Shown here piece after piece: positions 4,540 through 53,795 of a stretch of 64,000 nt of DNA. The notes under the pieces are model-generated. The model did no database searches and was not told where the DNA came from. It saw nothing but the letters and a program-made list of their open reading frames with translations. Each line of letters begins with the position of its first letter. Position 1 is the first letter of the stretch. This DNA is from Armatimonadota bacterium (lineage in GTDB: Bacteria; Armatimonadota; HRBIN16), in assembly GCA_026003195.1 (NCBI GenBank), contig BPGU01000002.1, forward strand, positions 744,001-808,000. The letters are read 5' to 3'. The translations under genes were made by a program, and so were the position numbers.

Positions 4540-5436
4540 ATGGTAGAAGTGCTGGAAGGAGACTGCGTCTATCATCTCCGCTCGCTTTGTCAGAGAGGGG
4601 AACAGTTTCATCTCACCTTCCTGGACCCTCCTTTCAACCAGGGCAAGGAATACGACTTCTTTGAGGATAACTTGCCACCGGAGACCTACTGGCAGTGGAT
4701 GGAACATGTTTGCCAACTAGTCTATCGCTGTTCTGCACCCGGAGCAGCCATCTACTTCATGCAGCGCGAGAAGAATACCGAACAGGTGCTCAGAGTGCTT
4801 AGAGAGACGGGATGGACGCTACAGAACCTGATTATCTGGCTCAAAAAGACCTCTGCCGTACCCAGTACTATTCGCTTTGGGAAACAGTATCAAATTATTG
4901 CCTTTGCCACCAAAGGTGAGACTCCGCGCGTCTTTCACCGCCTGCGCATCGACGCCCCACTGCGCCCCGAACATCGTCAACCGCGAGAGGACGGAGTGTT
5001 CGTCACCGATTGCTGGGATGATATTCGCGAGCTCACGTCAGGATACTTTGCCGGCGACGAAGCGTTGCGCACGCCAACCGGTGAGCGTTTCCACAAACAG
5101 CAATCTCCGATAGCCCTTCTACTACGCATTCTTTTGTCTTCTACTCATCCCGGCGACTGGGTGCTGGATCCGTTTGCAGGCACCGGAACGACCGGGGTGG
5201 TCGCCGAGCAGCTGGGGCGCCACTGCGTGCTGATAGAGAACGCCCCGCGCAATGTAGAGATGATTCGCTGGAGGCTGGAGGTGCAAAGACCCGCCGATTC
5301 GATAGACAAATGGCGCCACTATTATCGCTTTACCCCGAATCTGGACGAAATCTGGCCTGCGGAAGGCACGCGGGCATGGGGTAGAGAGAAGCAAATGGCG
5401 CTTTTCGAGGAGCACAGGGTATATGGGGATCATTAA
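4540..5436 (+). CDS. site-specific DNA methyltransferase (type II, beta class)
   Basis: DNA methyltransferase of 298 residues. The catalytic motif IV is DPPF (Asp29-Phe32, in LTFLDPPFNQG), which favours N6-adenine methylation. The SAM-binding motif I, DPFAGTGTTG, lies near residue 205, after motif IV; this permuted order defines the beta class. The intervening region must hold target recognition. GAGGGA lies 9 bases before the ATG, inside the end of the zinc-ribbon gene. The next gene overlaps it by 14 bases and looks like a restriction endonuclease, so this is probably the protective half of a type II restriction-modification system. The recognition sequence cannot be told from the sequence. 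Confidence 0.92.
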   Translation: MVEVLEGDCVYHLRSLCQRGEQFHLTFLDPPFNQGKEYDFFEDNLPPETYWQWMEHVCQLVYRCSAPGAAIYFMQREKNTEQVLRVLRETGWTLQNLIIWLKKTSAVPSTIRFGKQYQIIAFATKGETPRVFHRLRIDAPLRPEHRQPREDGVFVTDCWDDIRELTSGYFAGDEALRTPTGERFHKQQSPIALLLRILLSSTHPGDWVLDPFAGTGTTGVVAEQLGRHCVLIENAPRNVEMIRWRLEVQRPADSIDKWRHYYRFTPNLDEIWPAEGTRAWGREKQMALFEEHRVYGDH

Positions 5437-6475
5437 ATGTTTTCTCGACATCGCCAACGATTTGCGACAGGGTAAAAAAGACCTGACAACCTATCCCCTG
5501 GATATGTTGGCTGCCAGTCACGACAACTACGCTTATATTGGTAATCGCAGGACCCTCAGGGAAAAGGTACTGACACTGAGTTCGCGTTTGCGCACCCGGA
5601 TAAGCGGTTTGAGAGACGTACAGCACCCTTCAGAAAATGATACAGAAGAACAATGGGCTGCCTGGTGGTATGGTAGCAAGGATTGGGCGAAAAACTCCGG
5701 AGTTTTCCCCGACTTTGTGCTTGCTTGTGTGCGAGAAGAGATGGATTACTACTGGAGAGGAGCATTGTTGGAACTGAAGGACTCAAAAGGCGACTCTGTA
5801 GCCTCGTTCAACAGCACTTTACCTTCTGCGACCCAAAAATTTGAGAGCCTGCCTAAAATCGTACAGGATGCTACCTTCCGATACGATTTACCATCCTCTC
5901 AGCTCTGTGATTATCCTCAGGTACGGAGATGCTTTTACTTAGTAAGAACAAGAGCCGAGCACCCTGTGGAGGTCCGCGTTTCCCTGGTGGAAGGCACTTT
6001 CTTCGAAACACTACCAACCGACGAGCTGCTACGCGAGGTATGGAAGCAGCTGCTCATTGAATCTGGGTTGCCCCAGGAGCAGGCAGACGAGGTTGTTGAG
6101 AAACTCAGCTCCCTGGATAGGGAGGAAGTTGCTATCAGTCGGCACATAGAAAAAGCATCTATCAAACCCCGTCTACGCATCATGAGTGAGGTGGAAAGCG
6201 ATGGGAATCCGCACACATATCGTGAAATCCCGCCTCGCACATTGAACCTCATTGTGAAGACTCCTGTCGTCGAGCAGGCTAGTGACAGCGATGCATGGCT
6301 TCTGCAGAGCATGGAGTGGTTCCTCCAGCAAGCGCAGGCTGAGGGATTGACAGTAGAAAACGCAGATATCCCCAAAATCACCTTTATGGTTGGACGGGAA
6401 AAGATTTCCGTTGACCTTCGCTGCATCGTCCACCGCCGTAATGGCAGGCATCTTGTGCTCCAGTACCAGCATTAA
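5423..6475 (+). CDS. putative type II restriction endonuclease (PD-(D/E)XK)
   Basis: Protein of 350 residues with no strongly recognisable family, but with a PD-(D/E)XK-like core: Pro96-Asp97 (GVFPDF), a 19-residue spacer, then Glu117-Leu-Lys119 (LLELKDSKG), followed by SFNSTLPS. A hydrophobic strand before ELK fits the nuclease fold. It overlaps the upstream adenine methyltransferase by 14 bases, the classic arrangement of a type II system, with GAGGA ~11 bases before the ATG. Base composition is visibly more AT-rich than the neighbours, in keeping with horizontal acquisition. Family assignment is inference from motif plus context. Confidence 0.72.
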   Translation: MGIIKCFLDIANDLRQGKKDLTTYPLDMLAASHDNYAYIGNRRTLREKVLTLSSRLRTRISGLRDVQHPSENDTEEQWAAWWYGSKDWAKNSGVFPDFVLACVREEMDYYWRGALLELKDSKGDSVASFNSTLPSATQKFESLPKIVQDATFRYDLPSSQLCDYPQVRRCFYLVRTRAEHPVEVRVSLVEGTFFETLPTDELLREVWKQLLIESGLPQEQADEVVEKLSSLDREEVAISRHIEKASIKPRLRIMSEVESDGNPHTYREIPPRTLNLIVKTPVVEQASDSDAWLLQSMEWFLQQAQAEGLTVENADIPKITFMVGREKISVDLRCIVHRRNGRHLVLQYQH

Positions 6476-48263: not shown

Positions 48264-48887
48264 CTATACCAGTTCCCACTCCCTGAGCACCTGCACCTCC
48301 GGGGGCAATTGCCAGAGCCACTCTATCCTCAGCCAGAAGCCTCCCAGCACGGTGCTGTGATACACTCCCTGCTTCCCCTTCATCTGCAGCGCATATTTGC
48401 CATCCTCACCCAGCACGTAGAACTCCGCAAACCGCTTCTCGGGGTCTATCAGCCAGTATTCGCGCACGCCACCCTGCTCGTACTCGCCGAACTTCTGCAT
48501 GCGGTCGCGCTGCTCGCTTTCCGCACTGACGATTTCCACCACCAGGTCTGCCGCCCCATCCAGATAGGTACGACGCAGCAGGTGCCGCCGAGCGTTGCTC
48601 ACGAAAAGAATATCGGGGGAGCGACCGGGAAGGTCAACTCCCGTTTTCATCTGAAACGGCTCATAGCGCACTACACCCAGTTGTCGGTTGCTCACATACA
48701 GCTTGAGTATAGTAATCAGAAAGCTTCCCACCTCCTGATGCTCAGAAGAGACAGGGCTCATCAGTTGTACCTCACCGTCTACCCACTCTGCCCACGTGTC
48801 TTCGTCCAGCCACTCTAAGAACTGCTCGTAGCTGATTCTGCCCGCAGGCAGAGGTCGTACAGGTTGTAGCAATGTTTGCTGTGCCAC
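48264..48887 (-). CDS. Uma2-family endonuclease-like protein (copy 2)
   Basis: Protein of 207 residues of the Uma2 (DUF820) family, a PD-(D/E)XK-like fold. Catalytic-type residues: GRSPDILFVSN (Asp) and LVVEIVSAESEQRDRMQKFGEYEQGG, with EYWLIDPEKR. GTG start with GAGAGGTGAT upstream, 6 bases after the paralogue upstream. Very similar to the neighbouring Uma2 protein (long identical stretches), so it arose by tandem duplication. Cyanobacteria and related phyla carry many such genes; their function is unresolved. Confidence 0.88.
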   Translation of the reverse strand: MAQQTLLQPVRPLPAGRISYEQFLEWLDEDTWAEWVDGEVQLMSPVSSEHQEVGSFLITILKLYVSNRQLGVVRYEPFQMKTGVDLPGRSPDILFVSNARRHLLRRTYLDGAADLVVEIVSAESEQRDRMQKFGEYEQGGVREYWLIDPEKRFAEFYVLGEDGKYALQMKGKQGVYHSTVLGGFWLRIEWLWQLPPEVQVLREWELV

Positions 48888-48893
48888 CGGGCA

Positions 48894-49529
48894 TCACCTC
48901 TCTCCAGATAGCCAACCCCATTCTTGTAGCACCTGCACCTCCGGGGGCAATCGCCAGAGCCACTCTATCCTCAGCCAGAAGCCTTCCAGCACGGTGCTGT
49001 GATACACTCCCTGTTCTCCCTTCATCTGCAGCGCATATTTGCCATCCTCACCCAGCACGTAGAACTCCGCAAACCGCTTCTCGGGGTCTATCAGCCAGTA
49101 TTCGCGCACGCCACCCTGCTCATACTCGCCGAACTTCTGCACGCGGTCGCGCTGCTCGCTTTCCGCACTGACGATTTCCACCACCAGGTCTGCCGCCCCA
49201 TCCAGATAGGTACGACGCAGCAGGTGCCGCCGAGCGTTGCTTACAAAGAAGATGTCAGGGGAACGACCTGGCAGGTCTGCGCTCGTCTTCATCTGGAACG
49301 GTTCTGTGCACAGGATGCCCACCTGCCTGGCGGAGATAAAAAACTGCAGTATGGATGTCAGAAAGACAAAAGTCTTACTGTGTTCCAGAGATATTGGGCT
49401 CATCAGTTGTACCTCGCCGTCCACCCACTCCGCCCACGTGTCTTCGTCCAGCCACTCTAAGAACTGCTCGTAGCTGATTTTGCCCGCAGGCAGAGGGCGC
49501 ACAGGTTGGGTCAGCACTTGCTGCGCCAT
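48894..49529 (-). CDS. Uma2-family endonuclease-like protein (copy 1)
   Basis: Protein of 211 residues, paralogue of the following gene. The first ~45 and the middle residues (~95-175) are almost the same in both copies, while residues ~50-85 differ (FVFLTSILQFFISARQ against FLITILKLYVSNRQ). Key features: GRSPDIFFVSN and VVEIVSAESEQRD. ATG start with GAGGTGATG upstream; its promoter is the extended -10 site at 49549. Confidence 0.88.
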   Translation of the reverse strand: MAQQVLTQPVRPLPAGKISYEQFLEWLDEDTWAEWVDGEVQLMSPISLEHSKTFVFLTSILQFFISARQVGILCTEPFQMKTSADLPGRSPDIFFVSNARRHLLRRTYLDGAADLVVEIVSAESEQRDRVQKFGEYEQGGVREYWLIDPEKRFAEFYVLGEDGKYALQMKGEQGVYHSTVLEGFWLRIEWLWRLPPEVQVLQEWGWLSGER

Positions 49530-49560: not shown

Positions 49561-49591
49561 AGAGGGATACCCTGTACGGGGGTATCCCTCT
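49561..49591 (-). terminator. terminator of the chemoreceptor operon
   Basis: A perfect 12-bp stem (AGAGGGATACCC 49561-49572 with 49580-49591) and a 7-base loop, beginning 21 bases after the MCP stop. On the minus strand the stem ends in CTCT followed by TTGTG, a weak T tract. Confidence 0.6.
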
Positions 49592-49612: not shown

Positions 49613-52150
49613 TCAAGCGGCGCGCTTCAGCGTGTGTGCAGAGTCATCTTCCTCCAGCTGGAACTGCTGAACGAGTTGCTGCAGCTGCATCGCCATGGCG
49701 CTCAATTCTTGCGAAGCAGCGGTCACCTGTTGTGCCGATGCGCTGATTTCCTGAGCGCTGGCTGCTGCCTCCTCGCTCACAGACGCCACCGTTGCGATCG
49801 TCTCCGCCACCTGCTGGGCATGTGTGCTCATTGTTTGCACAGCATCGGCGTTCTCTTCAGCGGCAATGCGCACCGAGGAGACCGAGGCGAGCACCTGCTG
49901 CACACTGGCAGACATCTGCTGGGCAATAGCAGTGACTCCCTGCACCTCACTGGCCACCGTCTGCGCCGCCTGCACAATCTGCGCCAGATCTTCGTTGGCT
50001 TGAGTGCTGCGCGAGAAGCCCTTCTCAACCTCTTCGCTGGTCTTCTCCATCGCCTGCACCGCCTGTTCCACGCCGTGGCGCACGTTGGCGATGAGCTCAC
50101 TAATCTCCTTGGTAGAGGTAGCTGCCTGCTCAGCCAGCTTGCGCACCTCATCGGCAACCACCGCAAAGCCCCGACCGTGTTCACCCGCACGCGCCGCTTC
50201 AATGGCTGCATTGAGCGCGAGCAGGTTGGTTTGCTCGGCTATCTGCTCGATGGTTTCCACAATCGCGCCGATTTGCTGACCGAGCTGGTCAAGCTCCTTC
50301 ACCCGCTGAGCAGATACCAGCGTCTGGTCCTGGATGCGGCTCATGGTCTGGATAGTCTCTTGAACCGCCTGACCACCAGTCTGGGCGATTGCCGCCGCCT
50401 GCTGCGCGGAGGAGGACATCTGCTGTGCACTGCGCGCGACCTCTTCCACCGCTTGCGCAGCCTGCTTCATGCCCTCTTCGGCTTCGCTGGCAGATTGCTT
50501 CTGCACCTCGCTGCTGGCTTTCACCTGCTGGATAGCGGCTTCCAGTTCGTCGACAGCCCCTGCAGCTTCCGACGCCGTTCGGGCAAGCTGTTCGCTACCC
50601 TTCGCCACATCCTGTGTGCCGCGACTGCTTTGCTCAGTGGCTGCGCTCAGTTGCTGGCTGGTGGAAGCGAGTGCGGCAGAGGTTTCGGCAAGCCGGCTTG
50701 TCGCTTCTCGCAGGCTGGCAACCATTGCACTGAACGCCTGCCCCAGTTCGTCACGCTCCGAGCGAGGTGTGACCTTTACCGTCAGGTCACCCTGCGCCAT
50801 GCGTCGAGCGGTTTGAGCCATCTCCTGCATGTACGCCAGCATCTTGCGGAAGGCATCTGCCAGTATGCCGGTTTCATCCGCACCGCGGTGCTCTACCTGC
50901 TGATTCAGGTTGCCCTCTGCGATAGCGGTGGCTACCTGCACCATCTGGTTCAAGGGCTTCGCCACAGAACGCCCAAACCGCAGGAGGATAGCGGTAGTAG
51001 CCGCAGCGACCATCAAGCCGACGATGAGGAACGTCCACAGCATCTGCCGTCTACCAGCTTGCAACCGCTGGAAGGCAGCGCCGAAGTCATCCTCATACGC
51101 TGATACTCCGATCACCCAGTCCCACGGGGCGTAGTAGGTAATCTGCGCCACCTTCATGCGCGGTTTTGCCTCACCCTGGTTCTTCCAGGGATAGCGCATC
51201 TTGAAGCTTTCGCCGGGCTTCAGCTCCAGCGCGCGGTTCACCATCTCCTGAATAAAGAAGCGTCCGTTCGAATCCTTCGCTTCCCAGATGTTCTCGCCGT
51301 CGCGCTTTCCGTCTTTGGAGATAATGTAGTGACCGCGCTGGTCACCCTTGCCTCCGATAACGAAGATGTAGCCGTCCTTTCCCACACGGACGCCCATGAT
51401 CGCTTTGCGCACGGCATCTACGCTCTCCGTCTTGACGCCTGTGTAGAGCATTCCGATGATGCGCCCTGAAGCGTCGCGGAGGGGTTCGTAGGCAGCAACG
51501 TACCAGGAGTCCACCACGAAAGCCACTCCGCGGTAGGTCTCCCCACGCAGCACGGTGGATACCACGGGGTTCGGTGTGCCATCAGGATTTGTTGCCGGAA
51601 TGTAGGTACCCACTGCCCTCTTTCCGTTCTTGCCGATGACGTTGGTGGCGACTCGCAGCATGTCCCCCTGTGCGTTCATGCGCTGGAAGATGGTACAGGT
51701 GCCTCCCACCAACGACTTCACCCTGTCCACCACCGGCACCGTAGCGCCGGCGTTTGTCTGCTGTCCCAGCCACGTACTGCCAACCAGCATCTTGGGTAAA
51801 GAGATGATTTGAGCCTGTTTCGTGAACTGGTTCACCGCGTTCCATGTCACTGTCTCCGGTGCGAAGGTCACGCCGCCCGCGCTGTTCAGGATGTGCCTGG
51901 CAACGCTCAGGTTGTGCTCCACCACTTGCCGGAGCAATGCATCCTGGCTGGCAACCATCTGGTAGGTGGTCTCCACGACGTGAGACAGGTCGGAGTCTAC
52001 CAGCTTCTCGACCTCACGCTGCGCCTTCGCATTGAACACACTGCTTTGCCATGCAGCTACCGCGATGAGCGTGAGGGTGAGAAACGCAATCGCCCCCACT
52101 CCTAAAAGGACGAACTTGGTGCTGATGTTTCGTATCTCAGGTATTCTCAT
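49613..52150 (-). CDS. methyl-accepting chemotaxis protein with periplasmic Cache-type sensor
   Basis: Chemoreceptor of 845 residues. First membrane segment at ~12-32 ([22 protein letters not shown]), a periplasmic sensor domain to ~375 with Cache features ([27 protein letters not shown] and [19 protein letters not shown]), a second segment ([21 protein letters not shown]), a HAMP domain (~400-450), a second HAMP-like stretch and the signalling hairpin [39 protein letters not shown]. The sensed ligand is unknown. Co-directional with the porin gene 27 bases upstream. Confidence 0.95.
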
Positions 52151-52177
52151 CAAACCTCGGGCCTCCTCAGATGAAAC

Positions 52178-53449
52178 TCAGAACCGATGTGTCGTTTGCA
52201 CGTAAAACCACTCGGTGCGGTCGTCGAAACCGCCGTTTGTCTCCCGGACAAACCGCCCGGGCACGAAGCGCCCGTAACCTGCGGAGAGCTGCAGGTCAGA
52301 GGACAGCGAGTAGCTCAGCGTCAAGTTTATCTCGGTGCCCACCTCTGTGCCTGCTGCACCGGTCGGGTCTCGCAGAGACTTGCCGTCCATTCCCTTGACG
52401 GGTGATCCGCCCCCGCCGTACCAGTAGTCCCGGGAGTCTGCAAGGCGGTTCAGATGCATATCGGCAGTATACTGCCAGCGTGGGGTAGGCGAGCCACTGA
52501 CGCCAATGCGCCAGGCGCTCATGTTGCGCCAGCCCTGCAACCCCATCCGTCCACACATGGCGAAGGTCGTGCCGAAAAACTGGTCAAAGGTGTGGAGGGT
52601 AGTATCCTCAGGATTACCGCCACTGGCGAAGTCCCGCTGGAGAATGAGCCTGGTGTTGCCGGAGCGATTCAGGGCATATTCCAGACGTACCCAGTAGCCC
52701 CACGCTCTCAGGTCCTTCGCACCCACCTCTCCGCTCTGGAGCACTGCCTCGGCAGTGAGCTTCGTCCCCTTGCCGAGCTGTACCACCGGTCTGGCTCCCA
52801 CCGCCCAGATGCGCTGCTGGGTGCCGGAAGCAATCACCTCCTTGCGCAGCAAATAGACGTCGGATTGCCAGCGCGAAGAGGGCTTATAGGTGGCATAAAT
52901 GCCGTAAAGCACCGGATGTGTGGTGCTGGTAGGAAACATGCCCGGTCTGCCGTAGAGCAAATCGGCTTGCCAGCGGCTGCCCTTGAACCCGAGACGCACA
53001 GCATCCCAGGTGTAGCCGATGTTATCCCAGTTGGAGAGTATGAGCAAACGGTAATCACCATAGCCCATCTCCTGCCTTCCCAGTCGCAGGCTGATGTTGC
53101 CCCAACTGGTGTCCAGATACAGTTGCTGGAAACCGCTTTTCTCCTGCGTATCAGCGCTCCCGTTGAGCCTGTTGCGCTTGTAAGAGTGTTGCCAACGCGC
53201 AACGAATTGGGTAGTGGGTGAGGCTGTGGTGATGAAGTTCAGCCGAATACGGCTGAGCTCATCTTGTGGGTCTTTCTGGTTCACGGAGCAAAAATCGGTG
53301 CAGGCTCGGTCTTCATACCGCAGCCTCCACTCGGCATGGAAAGTCACGGACTTGCCAGCAGGCGAGGACTGTCCCGCACTGGCTGTTAACCATCCGCCGA
53401 GCGTGCATCCCCAAACGGCGACAGCAACACCCCACACAGACAAACGCAT
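52178..53449 (-). CDS. outer-membrane porin, alginate-export-like
   Basis: Beta-barrel protein of 423 residues. Signal peptide to ~SAG-QSS. The mature part alternates short strands and loops (VTFHAEWRLRYED, SLRLGRQEMGYGDYRLL, WDAVRLGFKGSRWQADLLYG) as in the alginate-export (AlgE-like) porins, and ends in an aromatic Phe (TTHRF) as outer-membrane barrels do. AAGGAGG lies upstream of the ATG. It heads an operon with the chemoreceptor, so uptake and chemotaxis to the same solute are suggested. Substrate not known. Confidence 0.85.
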   Translation of the reverse strand: MRLSVWGVAVAVWGCTLGGWLTASAGQSSPAGKSVTFHAEWRLRYEDRACTDFCSVNQKDPQDELSRIRLNFITTASPTTQFVARWQHSYKRNRLNGSADTQEKSGFQQLYLDTSWGNISLRLGRQEMGYGDYRLLILSNWDNIGYTWDAVRLGFKGSRWQADLLYGRPGMFPTSTTHPVLYGIYATYKPSSRWQSDVYLLRKEVIASGTQQRIWAVGARPVVQLGKGTKLTAEAVLQSGEVGAKDLRAWGYWVRLEYALNRSGNTRLILQRDFASGGNPEDTTLHTFDQFFGTTFAMCGRMGLQGWRNMSAWRIGVSGSPTPRWQYTADMHLNRLADSRDYWYGGGGSPVKGMDGKSLRDPTGAAGTEVGTEINLTLSYSLSSDLQLSAGYGRFVPGRFVRETNGGFDDRTEWFYVQTTHRF

Positions 53450-53795
53450 GTTTCTGTTTCCTCCTTACATCCCAAGATGCAGGCAGTACGACTTTCTAAA
53501 CCCACCTTATCTGCGCAAGTCGTGCGCCCGTAGAAATAACGGTTTTCCAATTGTGCATTTTCGGAGTACATTACCCAGAACTTTAGAGAAAATTTTTGTA
53601 ATACACTACATATATTTTTGAACATGCAGCGACATTTCGTCGTCGCTCAGCACGGTAGCAGGCTTCTTCTCAGGAACGCCCATTCCGCTCTAGAATTCGG
53701 TGTGCCAGCAGGATTCTCGCCAAACAGAGGGAAAAGGACTACAGAAGAACCGTGGAGTGCTTTGAAAAGCCAGAAACGCAAGGAGGTAGCAGAGT
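53450..53795. other. intergenic region between divergent genes
   Basis: 346 bases between the porin gene (minus) and the Tat-exported oxidoreductase (plus). 53560-53625 is strongly AT-rich. A small hairpin GCGCA-N5-TGCGC lies near 53510-53525 on the minus strand. No confident promoter pair is seen, although TAGAAT at ~53691 might serve the oxidoreductase. No gene or riboswitch is recognised. Confidence 0.5.

Follow-up and report, generated by a model that had tools for sequence, protein, structure and literature searches.

We propose that a porin gene and a chemoreceptor gene of an Armatimonadota bacterium probably form a two-gene operon, which would be transcribed under the control of sigma-28 (FliA) and end at a hairpin. 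The methyl-accepting chemotaxis protein (MCP) encoded by the second gene would sense formate or another small carboxylate, and the porin would open the outer membrane of motile cells.

Organization and conservation of the porin–MCP locus

The window, meaning the whole analyzed stretch of 64,000 nucleotides, belongs to a genome of 4.58 Mb. Among the named genomes of the collection, its nearest relatives are Armatimonadetes MAGs, including one labelled Chthonomonadia. The features relevant to the proposed operon are the following.

53558–53585, minus strand: sigma-28 (FliA)-type promoter, TAAAGTTCTGGGTAATGTACTCCGAAAA, 108 nt upstream of the ATG of the porin gene
52178–53449, minus strand: porin of the Alginate_exp family with a signal peptide, 423 aa, PF13372 score 141.1 bits
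52151–52177, minus strand: gap of exactly 27 nt from the porin TGA to the MCP ATG, containing the Shine–Dalgarno sequence GAGGAGG
49613–52150, minus strand: MCP, 845 aa, with a Cache_3-Cache_2 sensor, two HAMP stretches and an MCP signalling domain
51605–51655, minus strand: codons of the predicted formate triad R166, T169 and T182, with PacF-like spacing
49561–49591, minus strand: terminator-like hairpin after the MCP gene, AGAGGGATACCC-N7-GGGTATCCCTCT, kept in seven genomes

The first-pass annotation had described an alginate-export-like porin and, 27 bases further on, an MCP carrying a Cache-type sensor; this was confirmed by the Pfam matches and the exact length of the gap. The match of the porin to PF13372 (cut-off 25.2 bits) spans nearly the whole profile. 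The MCP matches PF17201 (Cache_3-Cache_2) with 341 bits and PF00015 (MCPsignal) with 156.7 bits, as well as HAMP. Its start codon is ATG, and an alternative TTG is located one codon upstream. The neighbours of the pair are GFO/IDH/MocA, QueF, Uma2, DnaJ-C28 and HHH genes. The gfo and porin genes are divergent, and the promoter block sits in the region between them. Two tandem Uma2-family genes (48264–49529 in the window) follow downstream of the MCP gene; the number of copies at this site ranges across the genus from none (G001) to two.

The porin gene was found in eight of the ten genomes of the genus, and the MCP gene in the same eight, adjacent to it and in the same order. The porin gene is interrupted by a contig break in G001 and G004, where its 3′ part still abuts the MCP gene. 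The adjacency in all eight genomes that carry either gene is more than chance would give. According to the gene coordinates, the gap between the two genes is about 45 nt in G001 and 21–27 nt in the other seven genomes, and its GGAGG is invariant in all eight. The porin orthologs within the genus share 72–92% identity and the sensor domains 81–94%. The surrounding block of gfo, Uma2 and djc28 is likewise syntenic across the genus, so that the linkage within the genus is by itself weak evidence for a unit.

The joint absence of the pair is a stronger point. Both genes are missing from G003 and from G008, a genome that is only 80% complete. The site is assembled in G003: homology to the window ends at 49566 and restarts at 53728, and the porin, the MCP and the promoter are thus absent as one unit. 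Since G003 is sister to the pair-bearing G009 in a small four-gene tree, the joint loss of the unit in G003 is the simpler reading; recombination of the locus is another possible account. In G005 (L056:9189-9862) the middle part of the porin gene is deleted with a change of frame, and the downstream MCP gene is intact. An assembly fault behind this gap is possible, but the size of the gap makes it unlikely. Beyond the genus, linkage of an MCP with this type of sensor to the porin family was found neither at 75 sensor loci nor among the in-phylum porin relatives.

The hairpin after the MCP gene shows compensatory changes in seven cells, and 94.8% of its cells are paired, compared with 43–64% in sliding controls. 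It is followed by GTGCTATAAT, which is likely the promoter for the next gene. From the motif upstream of the porin gene and the hairpin after the MCP gene, the most likely transcription unit comprises the sigma-28 promoter, the porin, the MCP and the terminator. The joint control of porin and MCP, which had been suggested when the pair was first noticed, is well supported by the conserved linkage, the shared sigma-28-type promoter, the terminator and the absence of the whole unit from G003.

Sigma-28-type promoter and the flagellar regulon

The best-conserved block between gfo and the porin gene that lies away from both gene starts is CTAAAG-N16-CCRAWAA. It reads TAAAG-N16-CCGAAAA in the window, with the −35 and −10 elements at fixed spacing; the −10 element differs by a single base from that of the best sites (CCGATAA). 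The sigma-28 consensus of E. coli is TAAAGTTT-n11-GCCGATAA, compared with which the spacer in the window is one base longer (PMC2859248). A generic sigma-70 scan returned no promoter for the porin–MCP operon.

Across the 4.58 Mb genome, the strict pattern TAAAGN{15,16}CCRAWAA is present at five sites, and the reversed pattern, used as the control, at none. Three of the other four sites are located 93 nt before the flagellin gene fliC, 167 nt before the gene of the anti-sigma-28 factor FlgM and 39 nt before flgF/G; the fourth is internal to an SLBB/polysaccharide-export gene by the flgB-fliF cluster. The flgM and flgF/G sites have the same spacing as the porin site, and the fliC site is one base shorter. 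The ten genomes of the genus together contain 57 strict sites and 11 control sites. By our count, about 45 of the 57 are at fliC, flgM, flgF/G, the SLBB gene, the porin gene or a TonB-receptor operon. The porin site is strict in six of the seven genomes with upstream sequence (G000, G001, G002, G004, G005 and G009) and a relaxed match only in G006; for G007 the upstream sequence is missing. Two further MCP genes of the genome have motif matches of 11 out of 12, located 29 and 43 nt upstream; about 2% of 3000 randomly drawn windows score at least 11 of 12, on a background that includes true sites.

In the sigma-28 system, FlgM holds FliA, which is released at late flagellar assembly. Both proteins are encoded in the genome, FliA at C3:65263-65937 with 264.5 bits (cut-off 189.6) and FlgM with a PF04316 match of 57.3 bits. 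Further sigma factors are encoded, and they match the FliA model more weakly. Given the conserved sigma-28 motif at the porin and flagellar genes and the presence of FliA and FlgM, the porin is predicted to belong probably to the late flagellar regulon.

The copy of the motif inside the SLBB/polysaccharide-export gene just upstream of flgB-fliF is near-invariant, spacer included (L099:6310-6337 and orthologs in all ten genomes of the genus; doubled in G008), which may reflect either promoter function or coding constraint. A sigma-28-type motif also heads an operon encoding a TonB-dependent receptor, a YfiR/DUF4154 protein, a CHASE8 hybrid histidine kinase and a response regulator-GGDEF protein. 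This operon was found with the motif in five genomes of the genus (L152–L156, corresponding to G005, G003, G009, G001 and G006).

The same data can be read in another way, in which the porin is a passenger. The promoter would serve the MCP, as with many sigma-28-controlled MCPs, and a chance event would have put the porin gene between this promoter and the MCP gene, where inertia preserved it in a single genus. We regard this as fairly unlikely. The confinement of the linkage to one genus, the synteny of the surrounding gfo, Uma2 and djc28 block and the intact MCP gene next to the broken porin gene of G005 all agree with it. However, the reading frame of the porin orthologs is open in the other genomes, with 72–90% identity, and the TonB-dependent receptor at the head of a sigma-28-motif operon in five genomes suggests that the presence of outer-membrane proteins in this regulon is more than one isolated accident.

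Sensor domain and predicted ligand

The profile built from the sensor and 58 relatives had 8py1 and 8py0 as its first matches among solved structures. These are formate-bound sCache sensors from Asticcacaulis and Oscillibacter, respectively. The structure model of the sensor is confident (mean pLDDT 91.9), and its membrane-distal module aligns with 8py0 and 8py1 with Z scores of 17.2 and 17.0 and rmsd values of 2.3 and 2.1 over 153 and 140 residues, respectively. The window sensor has the fold of this module and the triad in common with both structures. They are, however, single Cache domains, whereas the window sensor adds a membrane-adjacent sCache_2-like module, whose closest matches by sequence are the carboxylate sensors 4k08 and 5g4y.

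The residues R142, T145 and T158 affect formate binding in PacF of Pectobacterium atrosepticum (PMC12501870). The residues R166, T169 and T182 of the window MCP are spaced in the same way (R-x2-T-x12-T). Among the aligned sensor relatives the arginine is present in 59 of 59 sequences, the first threonine in 58 and the second in 55. Because of this conserved triad and a fold nearest to the formate-bound sensors, formate is the best prediction for the ligand of the MCP. A search of the genome for formate dehydrogenase gave matches below the cut-off only. PacF and McpF, the formate chemoreceptor of Pseudomonas syringae pv. tabaci, share the Cache_3-Cache_2 sensor, the triad and the MCP type with the window protein (PMC12501870). 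The window MCP is a predicted formate sensor, and its gene is the second of the proposed operon with a porin.

Sensor relatives with about 45–55% identity occur in Planctomycetes, Hydrogenedentes, Deltaproteobacteria, Chloroflexi, Spirochaetes and Geodermatophilaceae. Actinobacteria have no outer membrane. No Alginate_exp relative was found at any of 75 loci of sensor relatives, those of Actinobacteria included, within flanks of up to 5 kb, some contigs being shorter. At two of the 75 loci a barrel-like outer-membrane gene lies directly upstream of the MCP gene, with a gap of 58 nt at L212 and of 21 nt at L213; the upstream proteins have weak or no family matches to back the barrel assignment. 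L212 also has an OprB porin gene downstream of the MCP gene. The neighbourhood of a barrel and a PacF-type MCP at these two loci, counted without a background rate for other MCPs, is a lead only. The genes of these outer-membrane proteins are located at L212:1068-2417 and 5185-6423 in an Opitutaceae MAG, and at L213:1-903 in a contig labelled Archaeoglobus that looks bacterial.

The first-pass annotation had taken the joint control to suggest that the cell steers toward the solute admitted by the porin. The joint control stood up to the analysis, but the steering toward a shared solute did not find support. According to such a model, the porin admits a specific solute that is also sensed by the MCP, and the cell moves up gradients of solutes that it can take up. 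We consider this unlikely. The conserved co-expression unit and its joint absence agree with the model, as do the barrel-like proteins directly upstream of the two unrelated receptor relatives at L212 and L213. However, the receptor family is formate-like, it occurs mostly without an Alginate_exp porin and is also present in Actinobacteria, G005 keeps the MCP although its porin is broken, and only 2 of 75 loci have another outer-membrane barrel directly upstream.

Proposed role and relation to known systems

The genome encodes CheA, two CheW proteins, CheC, CheD, CheR, CheY and CheX in two clusters, along with FliG, flagellin and PilT-family ATPases. With CheA, CheW, CheY, CheR and flagellar motor genes present, the components of a flagellar chemotaxis system to which the MCP could belong are in place. 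Five MCPs with a signalling domain were found in the genome, and none of them is encoded inside a che cluster. The lack of other chemotaxis genes near the pair, which had been pointed out earlier, is therefore real at the locus but not peculiar: it is the rule in this genome and needs no special explanation.

We propose that late flagellar assembly frees FliA from FlgM in motile cells and that FliA would then transcribe the porin and MCP genes together. The porin would thereby be made when the cell builds its filaments and chemoreceptors. The MCP would join the receptor array, where it would probably sense periplasmic formate or a similarly small carboxylate through its membrane-distal Cache_3 module and signal through CheA, CheW, CheY, CheC, CheD and CheX to the flagellar motor. 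Most likely, the porin would make the outer membrane of motile cells more permeable to small solutes, which may be anionic. Formate passes general porins, and a dedicated channel for it would therefore count mainly in cells whose general porins are few or selective. It is very improbable that the conserved motif belongs to a different regulator or sigma factor: the genome does encode other sigma factors that match the FliA model more weakly, and the −10 element reads CCGAAAA here, but the same motif and spacing are found at flgM and flgF/G (one base less at fliC) in the genome and in the genus, and the motif fits the sigma-28 consensus (PMC2859248).

The closest parallels for the proposed sigma-28 control are the aer and trg promoters of E. 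coli, which have a TAAAG −35 and a CCGATAA-like −10 element with a chemoreceptor gene downstream, in an organism that, like the one studied here, encodes FliA and FlgM (PMC2859248). The unit proposed here differs from them by the porin gene between the promoter and the chemoreceptor gene and by the spacer, which is longer by one base. In a study of Geobacter chemotaxis, the only sigma-28 sites described were those of fliC and a single che cluster (PMC2577667). No clear precedent was found in the open-access literature, to which the search extended, for a porin that belongs to a FliA regulon or is cotranscribed with a chemoreceptor; with this scope, the result is weak evidence of novelty. Each part of the unit is known, and the arrangement with a porin gene leading a chemoreceptor operon of the flagellar regulon is new as far as the open-access literature shows. 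Sigma-28 appears to be an unexpected regulator, and the setting an unusual one, for a porin in a hot-spring-type Armatimonadota bacterium.

Chemoreceptors sit behind the outer membrane, and the influence of outer-membrane permeability on sensing has been little studied. A porin and a chemoreceptor on one flagellar promoter are a natural case in which both may be tuned together. We tentatively raise the possibility that the late flagellar regulon of the genus includes outer-membrane channels along with receptors, and that the porin made alongside the receptor in motile cells determines what gets through to the periplasmic sensor. If so, outer-membrane permeability would be tuned together with chemotaxis, and the TonB-receptor operon with its sigma-28 motif would be a second case. 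The locus comes from a phylum with few studied isolates, and the predicted ligand formate and the predicted sigma factor make the proposal directly testable.

The name Alginate_exp denotes the family of the porin and not its function. The porin shares its family match with AlgE and its relatives (PF13372); it differs from them in that no alginate genes adjoin it, no solved relative is found by sequence and its operon partner is a chemoreceptor. The assignment as an alginate exporter proper (AlgE) was rejected, as no alginate genes were present among the locus neighbours examined. Searches of solved structures with the single porin sequence and with the family profile gave nothing useful. The structure model of the porin, built from five sequences, has a mean pLDDT of 52.7 and is too weak for reading the pore or for comparing it with the 18-strand barrel and arginine-rich constriction of AlgE. 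The in-phylum porin relatives with roughly 25–38% identity have no such MCP adjoining, and the neighbours of porin relatives outside the genus give no consistent hint at a substrate. A second Alginate_exp protein of the genome (L018:7066-8544, 492 aa) is encoded next to an apparent set of ABC-transporter permease and binding-protein genes. At L015 (5950-6699 and 6844-8880), an MCP with a 4HB sensor is divergent from a barrel-looking outer-membrane protein without a Pfam match.
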